From assembly GCF_006838285.1 (NCBI RefSeq), contig NZ_CP038228.1, positions 3,658,001 to 3,722,000 of the forward strand: a DNA stretch of 64,000 nt, given 5' to 3'. Source of the DNA: Xanthomonas translucens pv. cerealis. Its GTDB lineage: Bacteria > Pseudomonadota > Gammaproteobacteria > Xanthomonadales > Xanthomonadaceae. A model generated the notes under the pieces. That model saw nothing but the letters and a program-made list of their open reading frames with translations, did not search any database and was not told where the DNA came from. The translations under genes were made by a program, and so were the position numbers. The stretch's first letter is position 1. Each line of letters starts with the position of its first letter. Shown here piece by piece: positions 35,165-40,135 of the stretch.

Positions 35165-35644
35165 TCAGCCGTCCTTGTTGGTCAGGATGGTGATGTGGCC
35201 ATTGGTCTCCAGCAGCGCCAGGCGCACGTTGTCCAGGCCCAGGCAGCCCTGCTGGCGCATCGCCGCCTCGAAGTCGGCGTTGCTGACCAGTTCGCGGCGC
35301 AGCACCTGGCGGAACACGTGGCCGTCGCGCGCCAGCACTACCGGCTCGCCTTCGATGAAGCGTTCGGCGCGATCGCTGCGCGAGGTGATCAGGCCGACGC
35401 CGAAGTTCAGTGCGATCAGCGTGGCCGCCAGCAACAGGCCGCCACCGAGCGAGGTGTCCTGGCCCAACAAGGCGTTCTGCACCGCATTGCCGAGCAGCAC
35501 GATCAGCAGCATGTCGAACGGGGTCAATTGCCCCATCGCACGCTTGCCCGACACCCGCACCATGGTCAGCACCGCCATATACACCACCACCGCGCGGAAA
35601 ATGAATTCCCACCACGGCATCGACAGATGGAAAAGATCGGGCAT
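35165..35644 (-). CDS. DUF421 (YetF-like) membrane protein
   Basis: A 159-residue protein with two or three N-terminal helices (FIFRAVVVYMAVLTMVRVSGKR, FDMLLIVLLGNAVQNALL, GGGLLLAATLIALNFGVGLI) and a cytoplasmic domain containing EGEPVVLARDGHVFRQVLRRELVSNADFEAAMRQQG. This is the DUF421/YetF layout; the function is unknown. The ATG at 35644 is preferred because the longer frame adds 76 residues read through the sRNA region. Confidence 0.82.
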   Translation of the reverse strand: MPDLFHLSMPWWEFIFRAVVVYMAVLTMVRVSGKRAMGQLTPFDMLLIVLLGNAVQNALLGQDTSLGGGLLLAATLIALNFGVGLITSRSDRAERFIEGEPVVLARDGHVFRQVLRRELVSNADFEAAMRQQGCLGLDNVRLALLETNGHITILTNKDG

Positions 35645-35724
35645 CGCACGGCTCGCAGGGTTGGGTGGAGCGGCGACCTTACGCCGCTGGCGATGGCAGT
35701 GCACTGGATTTTCCAGGGTCCAAT

Positions 35725-35850
35725 AAAAAAGCCCCGCGGACCAGGGGGAGGTCGGCGGGGCCAGGGAACGGAGACTTGGGGAGGAGTCGCCGTTCCTGGA
35801 TCTGCTCCAGGGGATGGGAGGAGATCCGCGACAGGTATTGCGCCTGTCGA
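35725..35850 (-). ncRNA. sX13-like small RNA
   Basis: A roughly 120-nt RNA gene on the minus strand. Reading 5' to 3' it folds into four hairpins: CGACAGG/CCTGTCG (35849-35829), GGATCT/AGATCC with an inner CTCC/GGAG stem (35827-35798), GGAACGG/CCGTTCC with inner GACT/AGTC (35796-35765), and the terminator GCCCCGC/GCGGGGC (35761-35731) followed by six T residues. Three loops expose CCCC or CCCCC. A TATATC box at 35858-35853 is a fitting -10 element. sX13 of Xanthomonas, an Hfq-independent virulence regulator with C-rich loops, is, as I recall, encoded downstream of polA; structure, size and location agree. Confidence 0.8.
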
Positions 35851-36283
35851 GGGATATAAAAACACTTTGCACCTTGCTAGTTCGTGAAGATTTCAGTTAA
35901 AAATTCATCGAATTAAGGACCGATTCATTCGTGAAATCCAGCGCAACGCAGGGTTCCAGAAACAATTGATTTTTATAGGATCTGGATCCATGCACGGGAA
36001 CGCGGCGACCGATCGTTTGTAATGCCGATTGGATCGCGAACCGGTGCGTTGTTAGGCCTTGTCGCGTCGATGCTGCAGCATCGATGCGGTCCCGCTCCGC
36101 AGTCGCGCGACGACGGCGATCCAGGCGCAAATGCCTCCGCGCGAATACCTGCCTTCGCCGCGAGCGATTCTTCTGCCAGAGCATGCATCGCGGCGCATAA
36201 AGACGTTCAGGCCCACCGCCCGGCGCCCCAGCCGCGCAGCACCCATCCCGTTAGCAGTAACTGTCCCGAATCCCCGGTAAAGA
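35851..36283 (-). other. Region between the sRNA and polA
   Basis: The part next to the sRNA (35851-36000) is AT-rich and contains its promoter. The rest holds no supportable gene; the open frames lack protein character. Confidence 0.5.
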
Positions 36284-39052
36284 CTAGTGCGCCTCGTCCC
36301 AGTTGTCGCCGACGCCGCTGTCCACCACCAGCGGCACCTTCAGCGCGGCGGCGCCGGCCATCAGCCGGGTCACTTCCGGCAGCAGGGTGTCGACGAAGTC
36401 GGCATCGGCCTCGAACACCAGTTCGTCGTGCACCTGCAGGATCATCAGCGCGCGCTCGCGGTGCTGTTCCAGCCAGGCGTCCACGGTAACCATGGCGCGC
36501 TTGATGATGTCCGCGGCGGTGCCCTGCATCGGCGCGTTGATCGCCGCGCGCTCGGCGCCGGCGCGCAGGCCCTGCTGCTTGGCGTTGATGTCGTTCAGGT
36601 ACAAGCGGCGGCCGAACAGGGTCTCCACGTAGCCCTGGCTGCGCGCCTGCTCGCGCATGCGTTCCATGAAGTCGCGCACCGCCGGGTAGCGGCTGAAGTA
36701 CAGCGCCACGTAGTCCTGGGCCTCGCCGCGGCCGATGCCCAGGTTGCGGGCCAGGCCGAACGCGCTCATGCCGTACATCAGGCCGAAGTTGATCGCCTTG
36801 GCGGCGCGGCGCTCGTTGCCGGTGACGTCCTCGAGCTTGCGCCCGAACACTTCGGCGGCGGTGGCGCGGTGCACGTCCACGCCGGCGCCGAAGGCGCGCA
36901 GCAGGCCCGGGTCCTCGGACAGGTGCGCCATGATCCGCAGTTCGATCTGCGAGTAGTCGCAGGCGATCAGCTTGCGCCCGGGCGGGGCGACGAAGGCGCG
37001 GCGGATGCGGCGGCCGTCGTCGGTGCGGATCGGGATGTTCTGCAGGTTCGGATCGGCCGAGGACAACCGCCCGGTGGCGGCGCCGGCCTGGTGGTAGCTG
37101 GTGTGTACGCGGCCGGTGTCTGGATTGATCATCTCCGGCAGCTTGTCGGTGTAGGTGCTGCGCAGCTTGGCCAGGCCGCGGTAGTCCAGGATCACCCGCG
37201 GCAGTTCGTGCTGCTCGGCGATCGCCTCCAGCGCCTCTTCGTTGGTGCTGGGCTGGCCCTTGGGGGTCTTGAGCAGCGCGGGCAGTTTCAGTTCGTCGAA
37301 CAGCAGCGCCTGCAGCTGCTTGGGCGAGTCCAGGTTGAAGGTGCGCCCGGCCAGCGCGGTGGCCTTCTGCTGCGCGGCGAGCATGCGCTGGCTCAGGTCC
37401 TGGCTCTGCCTGCGCAGTTCGGCCATGTCCACGCTCACGCCGTTGGCCTCGATCCGCGCCAGCACCGGCACCAGCGGCATCTCGATCTCGCGGTAGACCC
37501 GCGCCAGCGCCGGCTCGGCGTCCAGCTGCGCGGACAGCGCGCGGTGCAGGCGCAGGGTGATGTCGGCGTCCTCGGCGGCGTAGCCGGTGGCGTCGTCGAT
37601 GGCCACCTGCGAGAACGCGATCTGCTTGGCGCCCTTGCCGGCCACGTCCTCGTACTTGACCGTCTCGTAGCCCAGGTAGCGCCGCGCCAGCGAATCCATG
37701 TCGTGGCGGCTGGCGGTGGAATTGAGCACGAAGCTCTCCAGCATGGTGTCGTCGGCATAGCCGCGCACGTCCACGCCGTGGCGGCGCAGCACGTGCAGGT
37801 CATACTTGCCGTGCTGGCCGACCTTCGGCTTGGCCGGGTCCTCCAGCAGCGGCTTCAGCGCCGCCAGTGCCAGGGTCCGGTCCAGTTGCGCCGGCGCGCC
37901 GGGGTAGTCGTGGCCCAGCGGCAGGTAGTCGGCGCGGCCGTGCTCGATCGCGAAGCTGAGCCCGACCAGGTTGGCGCGCATCGCGTCCAGCGCGTCGGTC
38001 TCGGTATCGAAGGCGAAGCCGTCGGCCGCGCGCAGGCGCGCAAGCAGGTCCTCGAACTGCTCCTGGGTCAGGATCGTCGCGTATTCGCCCTTGGCGGCCA
38101 GCGCCGGGTCCAGTGTGGCGTCGATCGGCGCGGCAGCGCGGGCATAGCCGGCGGCGGTGCCGCGCAGGCTGGGGGTGACCTCGGCGGCGCCGGCCGGGGC
38201 CGCCACCCCGCCGTCCAGGTCGCGTAGCGCCTGGGTGAAGCCGTAGCGCTGGTACAGGCCGCGCAGCTGCTCCGGGTCCTGCTCGCGCAGGCCCAGCGTG
38301 CGCGGGCCGCCAGGCAGGGCCACGTCGGTCTTGATCGTGACCAGTTCGCGGTTCAGCGGCAGCCGCGCCAGCGCCGCGCGCAGGTTCTCGCCGATCTTGC
38401 CCTTGATCGCATCGGCATTGGCCATGACCCCGTCCAGCGAGCCGTATTCGGCCAGCCACTTGGCCGCGGTCTTGGGTCCGCACTTGTCCACGCCGGGCAC
38501 GTTGTCGATGGCGTCGCCCATCAGCGCCAGCAGGTCGACGATCTGGCTCGGCCACACGCCGAACTTCTCCATCACCGCCGCATCGGAGTCCATGCGGCTG
38601 CCGCTCATGGTGTTGACCAGTTGCACGCCGGGGCGCACCAGCTGGGCGAAGTCCTTGTCGCCGGTGGAGATGGTCACATCCAGGCCATCGCCGGCGCCCT
38701 GCAGGGCCAGCGTGCCGATCACATCGTCGGCCTCCACCCCGCCCTCGCGCAGGATAGTGATGCCCAGCGCATGCACGATCTGGCACATCGGCTCGACCTG
38801 TGTGCGCAGTTCGTCGGGCATCGGCGGGCGGTTGGCCTTGTACTGCGCGTACAGGTCGTCGCGGAAGGTCTTGCCCGGCGCATCGACCACGAAGGCCACG
38901 TACTCCGGGCGTTCCTTCAAGGTGGCGCGCAGCATGTTGACCACGCCGAACAACGCGCCGGTGGGCTCGCCGGCGGGGTTGGTCAGCGGGGGAAGCGCGT
39001 GGAACGCGCGATACAGGTAACTGGACCCGTCGATCAGGACTAATCGGCTCAT
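36284..39052 (-). CDS. polA: DNA polymerase I
   Basis: A 922-residue PolA with all three domains: 5'-3' exonuclease (residues 1-290), 3'-5' proofreading exonuclease (about 320-520, with the acidic FAFDTETDALDAM motif) and the polymerase (about 530-922), containing CDYSQIELRIMAHLSEDP (motif A), RRAAKAINFGLMYGMSAFGLARNL (motif B) and LQVHDELVFEA (motif C). It fills gaps in repair and replaces RNA primers. The gene is alone; its transcript runs toward the sRNA. Confidence 0.98.
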   Translation of the reverse strand: MSRLVLIDGSSYLYRAFHALPPLTNPAGEPTGALFGVVNMLRATLKERPEYVAFVVDAPGKTFRDDLYAQYKANRPPMPDELRTQVEPMCQIVHALGITILREGGVEADDVIGTLALQGAGDGLDVTISTGDKDFAQLVRPGVQLVNTMSGSRMDSDAAVMEKFGVWPSQIVDLLALMGDAIDNVPGVDKCGPKTAAKWLAEYGSLDGVMANADAIKGKIGENLRAALARLPLNRELVTIKTDVALPGGPRTLGLREQDPEQLRGLYQRYGFTQALRDLDGGVAAPAGAAEVTPSLRGTAAGYARAAAPIDATLDPALAAKGEYATILTQEQFEDLLARLRAADGFAFDTETDALDAMRANLVGLSFAIEHGRADYLPLGHDYPGAPAQLDRTLALAALKPLLEDPAKPKVGQHGKYDLHVLRRHGVDVRGYADDTMLESFVLNSTASRHDMDSLARRYLGYETVKYEDVAGKGAKQIAFSQVAIDDATGYAAEDADITLRLHRALSAQLDAEPALARVYREIEMPLVPVLARIEANGVSVDMAELRRQSQDLSQRMLAAQQKATALAGRTFNLDSPKQLQALLFDELKLPALLKTPKGQPSTNEEALEAIAEQHELPRVILDYRGLAKLRSTYTDKLPEMINPDTGRVHTSYHQAGAATGRLSSADPNLQNIPIRTDDGRRIRRAFVAPPGRKLIACDYSQIELRIMAHLSEDPGLLRAFGAGVDVHRATAAEVFGRKLEDVTGNERRAAKAINFGLMYGMSAFGLARNLGIGRGEAQDYVALYFSRYPAVRDFMERMREQARSQGYVETLFGRRLYLNDINAKQQGLRAGAERAAINAPMQGTAADIIKRAMVTVDAWLEQHRERALMILQVHDELVFEADADFVDTLLPEVTRLMAGAAALKVPLVVDSGVGDNWDEAH

Positions 39053-39682: not shown

Positions 39683-40135
39683 TCACGCCATTTTCCGAGC
39701 GAACCGCAGCCCCTGCACGAACACGGCGACGTCTCGCAACCCCAGCCACAGCGTCTTGGCGCCCGGCTCACCATCGCCCTTGCGCCCCAGAAAGCCACCC
39801 AACTGTGCCACTAACCGCACCACCGTGTTCAACGTGGGCACCTGCTTGGGCGGCTTCTTCTTGTTGAGCACATAGGCCGCCTGCCATTCGTCAGCCTCGA
39901 ACAGCAGGTCTGCGGGTAGGTCCGGCAGCGATCGCCCCAGCCGCATCAGCCGGTTGATCCGCCAGGCCACCACCAGGTACAGCGCCAGTGCCGTCTCGAT
40001 GCGCTCGACATCTCCCAATTGCAGGGCCTCGATGCGGCAACCCTGCTTGAGGATCAGGAAGAACAACTCAATCTCCCAACGCGCTCGGTACCAGTCGATC
40101 AACTCCACCGCTTGCTCCAGCGTCTCCACGTTCAA
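39683..40135 (-). pseudogene. IS4-family transposase, C-terminal fragment
   Basis: About 150 residues of a DDE transposase. The fragment has the IS4 YREK signature: ELIDWYRARWEIELFFLILKQGC with Tyr, Arg, Glu and Lys at the usual spacing. The full protein would be some 400 residues; everything N-terminal to LNVETLEQ is missing, and a stop codon appears about 15 codons upstream. It cannot be active. Confidence 0.85.

Follow-up and report, generated by a model that had tools for sequence, protein, structure and literature searches.

The window analyzed here, a 64,000-nucleotide stretch of the Xanthomonas translucens pv. cerealis genome, carries on its minus strand the gene for DNA polymerase I (polA), a gene for a DUF421/YetF-like membrane protein and, between the two, a small RNA gene that is an ordinary sX13, filed under RF02232 (Table 1). 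That identity had been proposed from the letters alone, with a covariance search set beforehand as its test, and cmscan returned a match to the whole RF02232 model (positions 1–115) at 35839–35725 on the minus strand, at 116.1 bits, where the cut-off is 50, and an E value of 1.3e-21. It is the sole gathering-level match to Rfam release 15 across the 64-kb window, and a genome search of this strain found one sX13 copy. As the original prediction had it, the RNA lies beyond polA, which is upstream on the same strand at a spacing of about 434 bp from the first hairpin. The polA–sX13 distance is 359–542 bp in 9 of 10 loci of the same genus (and 196 bp in the remaining one, from a small genome); in two genera, those of loci L002–L031, it is shorter, at 153–179 bp. 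The spacer itself (35840–36283) contains small palindromes, for example at 36063–36088, and a repeat search of 35640–36283 found, besides the arms of the sRNA, only small palindromes and a single short direct repeat. The DUF421/YetF-like gene, whose start codon was taken from the sequence, is downstream of the sRNA and separate from it. Elsewhere in the window, a Tn5-type transposase C-terminal piece (Dimer_Tnp_Tn5) at 39683–40135 on the minus strand is probably the remnant of an insertion sequence.

Table 1. Features of the polA–sX13 region, in window coordinates.
Feature	Positions	Strand	Basis or detail
polA (DNA polymerase I)	36284–39052	minus	922-aa ORF; Pfam DNA_pol_A, 5_3_exonuc_N, DNA_pol_A_exo1
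Conserved upstream box CTTCACGAA	35881–35889	minus	about −42 to −35 from predicted start
TATATC, −10-like box	35853–35858	minus	sequence; ATA conserved at same offset in own family
Predicted transcription start (A)	35847	minus	from −10 spacing
Stem 0, 5′ hairpin	35829–35849	minus	fold and covariation; Rfam model has only the 3′ half
sX13 by RF02232, 115 nt	35725–35839	minus	cmscan
Stem-loop 1	35798–35827	minus	fold; loop CATCCCCT at 35816–35809; CCCC 35813–35810
Stem-loop 2	35765–35796	minus	fold; loop CCTCCCCA at 35784–35777; CCCC 35781–35778
Stem-loop 3 and T-run, intrinsic terminator	35725–35762	minus	loop TCCCCCT 35749–35743; CCCCC 35748–35744
DUF421/YetF-like membrane protein gene	35165–35644	minus	Pfam PF04239, 53.1 bits on 35165–35641

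Four hairpins follow one another on the minus strand from 35849 to 35730, closing with a GGGGC-TTTTTT end that a generic terminator scan also calls, and this series, with three loops exposing CCCC or CCCCC, is just what had been predicted. The minimum free energy of 35849–35725 is −66.3 kcal/mol, whereas 200 dinucleotide shuffles average −38.9 and none of them folded as well (z −8.08). In that structure the loop of the first hairpin is CGCAATA (35842–35836); the C-runs of the three loops that follow (CCCC, CCCC, and CCCCC) have a mean unpaired probability of 1.0 in the predicted fold, in which a fourth C-run, at 35760–35757, is paired inside the terminator stem. The element also agrees, as anticipated, with the sX13 described from Xanthomonas campestris pv. 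vesicatoria (Xcv), with which, on the passages of that report that bear on it, it shares its sequence, the three C-rich loops, the terminator, the position next to polA, and a conserved 4G site in hfq (PMC3771888). One expectation was too strong, namely that annotation pipelines would leave this gap blank: in Xylella, Bakta run with Rfam does annotate sX13, as passages of PMC12189769 record.

Where does this RNA begin? In the Rfam model, as in the published RNA, the 5′ end is the first A of GCAA (35839), which falls inside the loop of a hairpin that we call stem 0, 10 nt after its base; in the loci inspected, the bases immediately before the model are able to pair with its opening ones. The TATATC box (35858–35853) is 3 nt from the base of stem 0 and 13 nt from the Rfam 5′ end, which makes a start near 35847 the better reading, close to the 35848 originally claimed for it. 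A generic sigma-70 scan of 35600–36300 returned 0 promoters and did not call this box. The box CTTCACGAA farther upstream is strongly conserved across the 40 distinct upstream sequences compared within the own family; it is not conserved in the Rhodanobacteraceae-type genomes (f12), where an AACTT box lies near −35, and it may be a regulator site. Judged from the letters and their conservation, the primary start is probably near 35847 rather than at the published 35839; the published 5′ end, that is, is probably not the primary one, and comparison of the loci suggests that sX13 has an extra, unreported first hairpin.

In alignment A2, 36 distinct sequences from the own family were aligned with plain MAFFT and not fitted to any structure. 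There, 97.2% of the 324 cells of stem 0 are paired, and six of its nine pairs have changes on both sides; none of 500 shuffles of A2 reached the observed stem 0 values (12 of 500 did so for further pair types), and sliding the partner by one to three columns drops the pairing to 26–55%. Alignments A3 and A4 were fitted to the structure under test, and when 56 sequences of two families were aligned in a fitted way, 97.8% of stem 0 cells are paired, with double changes in eight of the nine pairs. When the arms of 46 distinct stem 0 pairs were swapped, 0 of 2,000 permutations reached the mean of the pairs as they stand. The loop is GCAA in 55 of the 56 sequences (TCAA in L046) and the arms are variable. 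Searches farther afield used a series of models: R1, the RNAalifold consensus of A2, in which stem-loop 1 was mispaired from a shift in the alignment; R2, with a hand-written structure, which replaced it; and R3, built from 56 sequences with stem 0 included and with no polA or engB sequence. Across 52 R3 matches, none of them in the training of R3, 90.7% of cells are paired compared with 59.2% when shuffled, and for stem 0 in the same matches the figure is 90.8%, the alignment having been made to follow the model. In distant families a 5′ hairpin is present again, its arms unrelated in sequence.

Two other accounts of these hairpins have to be weighed against this one. Might they belong to the 3′ end of polA or to the 5′ leader of the DUF421 gene, with no independent sRNA at all? 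They do sit between the two genes, all on the same strand, but the 5′ hairpin, the loops, and the terminator are kept as a unit while the distance to polA varies from 92 to 542 bp. We give the idea next to no weight. The harder question is whether stem 0 is a DNA palindrome at the promoter, the operator of some regulator, with transcription starting at 35839. A perfect dyad adjoining a −10 box is a usual layout for an operator, and the conserved box CTTCACGAA lies upstream of it; however, the arms co-vary while the loop stays fixed, which is the opposite of what an operator does and argues for RNA structure, a start at 35839 would put 13 nt after the −10 box, and the recurrence of the hairpin with unrelated arms in distant families also speaks against an operator. 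The published record enters on both questions, in the parts of PMC3771888 that describe the Xcv RNA: it is an sRNA reported with its own deletion phenotype, which counts against a mere leader or trailer, and its 115 nt begin at 35839 and lie 175 bp after polA, a start that an operator would accommodate. An Xcv sX13 without its first 14 nt was still active (PMC3771888), so stem 0 is dispensable for activity under that test. On balance an operator seems improbable to us, and we keep to the transcript that would open with stem 0.

Within the order, RF02232 at E ≤ 0.001 matches 238 of 398 genomes (143 of them over the cut-off), and R3 matches 281 of 398, losing one genome (G239) that RF02232 had. 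An exact 20-mer of the Rhodanobacteraceae stem 0 occurs in 65 contigs, 57 of which are labelled Rhodanobacter, Dyella, Frateuria, or Fulvimonas (Dyella and Rhodanobacter belong, by taxonomy, to the Rhodanobacteraceae); R2 finds a match (E ≤ 0.001) in 60 of the 65, with L081 and L087 having theirs beside the 20-mer, and in none of L095, L097, L113, L115, and L138. sX13 has been called exclusive to the Xanthomonadaceae, at least in the relevant passage of PMC3771888, whereas here sX13 or its relatives are found also in the Rhodanobacteraceae and outside the order. Of 71 loci taken from the own family and the Rhodanobacteraceae, 66 have an upstream polA on the same strand, the exceptions being L045, L046, L048 (at a contig end), L065, and L066; in the other families of the order, polA is within the 1.5-kb flank of 16 of 30 matched loci, always on the same strand, and there is none in that flank in the other 14. 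Two of the exceptions, L045 and L046, are two sX13 copies in one genome (G225), and polA is absent from the flank fetched for each. Many f12 genomes have a second R3 match, and 13 such further copies (L197, L198, and L200–L210) have no polA in the flank; in most of them, though not in L203 and L210, the 5′ hairpin resembles TCGCCGTGACGGCGA and the terminator loop contains TCCCCTGG, and these copies are apparently a paralogous C-rich sRNA.

Beyond the order, in a sample of the class, R3 matches 36 of 369 genomes; 31 of these do not belong to the order, and we fetched the loci of 20 of the 31, the better-scoring ones. polA lies upstream on the same strand, at 43–1384 bp, in 16 of the 20, and a convergent EngB motif lies 0.5–1.1 kb downstream in 12; 19 of the 20 have one or the other, and the exception, L219, is at a contig edge. 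Because R3 contains no polA or engB sequence, this synteny is independent evidence. In a 110-genome sample of the phylum, R3 matches four genomes, all of the own family and none beyond it. Two genomes of one gammaproteobacterial family (L211 and L212) each have four tandem sX13-like RNAs downstream of polA. A Campylobacter sRNA that had appeared to be polA-linked was rejected, a text match to “polar” having been taken for “polA.”

Which named RNAs do these loci recall? Many places matched by R3 also match anti-hemB or ar14 below the cut-off and, once each, ErsA and sar. The anti-hemB model (RF02837, Burkholderia RNA 7) matches 156 of 339 class genomes, 18 of them over the cut-off, and the ErsA model (RF01719, Pseudomon-1) matches 13 of 339, one of them over the cut-off. 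Among the matches listed (for RF02837, those of 339 of the 369 genomes), at least 22 of the 36 R3 places outside the order overlap RF02837 places, and of the 13 ErsA places at least 7 overlap an RF02837 place and at least 1 an R3 place. In L226, a place 61 bp behind polA that R3 matches also has an RF02837 match over the cut-off, and at the sole ErsA locus over the cut-off R3 matches the ErsA place with 29.3 bits (E 1.4e-4). Among the 32 anti-hemB-type loci fetched, 16 have a same-strand polA (17 when either strand is counted), and 23 have either a same-strand polA or a convergent EngB; for ErsA-type loci the corresponding count is 7 of 8.

ErsA occupies the same locus, the polA–engB intergenic region, and is described in the relevant section of PMC8575079 as three stem-loops with a U-rich unstructured targeting domain, which is absent from sX13; RF01719 gave no match in the window at the gathering level, none in 35600–36000 at E ≤ 0.1, and none in the own genome. 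The anti-hemB RNA shares the C-rich loops, the terminator, and the locus (23 of 32); the window scores 19.1 bits against RF02837, below its cut-off of 49.5, the own genome has one match (E 9.2e-4), and the passages on the RF02837 RNA in PMC5688073 give it no function. The ar14 RNAs (NfeR1 or cuckoo RNAs, RF02344) have, in the account excerpted from PMC10746234, three hairpins, loops with anti-Shine–Dalgarno motifs, and no dependence on Hfq; their loop motif is CCUCCUCCC, where sX13 has CCUCCCC, and the window scores 34.5 bits against a cut-off of 58.8. The ar14 link is without the synteny support of the ErsA and anti-hemB loci. Spot 42 (RF00021) shares the arrangement of polA, sRNA, and convergent yihA; RF00021 gave no match in the window at the gathering level and none in 35600–36000 at E ≤ 0.1, and the Spot 42 match to R3 is the best of 14 weak ones in 5 kb (11.6 bits, E 0.026). 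sX13 has been compared with Spot 42 and alpha-r7, and Spot 42 is Hfq-dependent, unlike sX13, according to the corresponding passages of PMC3771888. A link of sX13 to ErsA, anti-hemB, or ar14 was not found among the literature matches listed, which cover the literature in part, and a precedent in print is possible.

Perhaps all of this is convergence, and these models would give a score to any GC-rich sRNA that has a terminator and C-rich loops. Most of the cross-family scores are indeed below the gathering cut-offs, three of the 14 control genomes (those of E. coli, Caulobacter, and Deinobacterium) also give RF02837 matches below the cut-off, and the ar14 members of the Rhizobiales are described, in the passage at hand from PMC3927594, as paralogues with diverged stems. 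Chance likeness of this kind would nonetheless leave the neighborhood unexplained, the matches adjoining polA or engB in the R3, anti-hemB-type, and ErsA-type loci alike, and it fits poorly with a model that finds nothing beyond the own family in the phylum sample. We consider convergence unlikely. The common descent of sX13, ErsA, and anti-hemB is, on the sequences compared, likely rather than proven, and sX13 is probably the Xanthomonadales branch of a gammaproteobacterial polA–engB family to which ErsA and the anti-hemB RNA of Burkholderia would also belong; with scores mostly below the cut-offs, matches in the controls, a weak Spot 42, and phylum hits in the own family only, we keep the wider family as likely and go no further. 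To the fuller proposal, in which sX13, ErsA, anti-hemB, and perhaps Spot 42 would come from one ancestral gammaproteobacterial polA–engB sRNA with anti-Shine–Dalgarno-like loops and a covarying 5′ hairpin in its primary transcript, we lean modestly. For the element in the window—a genuine sX13 gene with its own promoter and terminator, a start at about 35847 with stem 0, C-rich loops, and a place in the Xanthomonadales branch of the polA–engB family—we would put the probability at about 85%.

What might such an RNA do? Each of the 56 aligned RNAs has CUCCC and no fewer than three C-runs of length four or more, and CCUCCC is present in 55 of them (counted over the whole RNA, not the loops alone). 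These motifs resemble the anti-Shine–Dalgarno tail of 16S rRNA. Parts of PMC10746234 and PMC3927594 describe the ar14 family in like terms, and the plainest mechanism, given these likenesses, is that preformed loops occlude G-rich ribosome-binding sites. Transcription would begin at about 35847, and the RNA would open with stem 0, a strong hairpin that may shield its end, followed by three hairpins with rigid C-loops. The loops (CCUCCCC here and CCUCCC in relatives) would imitate the anti-Shine–Dalgarno tail, and the RNA would, therefore, compete with the ribosome for strong Shine–Dalgarno sites. By extension from the Xcv case (PMC3771888, in part), the loops may pair with GGGG stretches in or close to ribosome-binding sites or start codons, with no need for Hfq, and thereby keep hfq, type IV pilus, and other mRNAs from being translated.

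In that case, as told in the passages of PMC3771888 on targets, sX13 activity did not need Hfq, and reporter fusions of XCV3927, hfq, and pilH were repressed only when the RNA had its C-rich loops and the message its GGGG motif near the start codon, loop 2 being the one that repressed hfq; compensatory mutants did not restore repression, and the authors assumed that sX13 acts indirectly on type III secretion genes. The hfq of the own genome, which starts ATGTCCAAGGGGCAA and reads ATGTCCAAGGGG, has the G-rich target site 9 nt after the AUG. Across the window, counting every ATG and not just the starts, GGGG-N9-ATG was found 2 times against 10.05 expected, which is no enrichment. The label of “virulence sRNA” carries over in part: the genome does have a type III secretin-like gene (TIGR02516, in two adjoining pieces with 535 bits together), but the Rhodanobacteraceae have sX13 too, and other gammaproteobacterial families have its relatives, and for that reason the basic job of sX13 is probably not virulence as such.

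In 2013 it was left open, in the discussion excerpted from PMC3771888, whether the polA loci of other bacteria harbor sRNAs with an sX13-like action. The comparison made here offers candidate loci for that question, together with a revised 5′ anatomy and a proposed, testable common mechanism for several sRNAs now kept in separate Rfam families. If the fuller proposal of one ancestral sRNA is true, the published sX13 would be the product of processing within the stem 0 loop, and the “virulence regulator” would be a late use of a general competitor in translation initiation.
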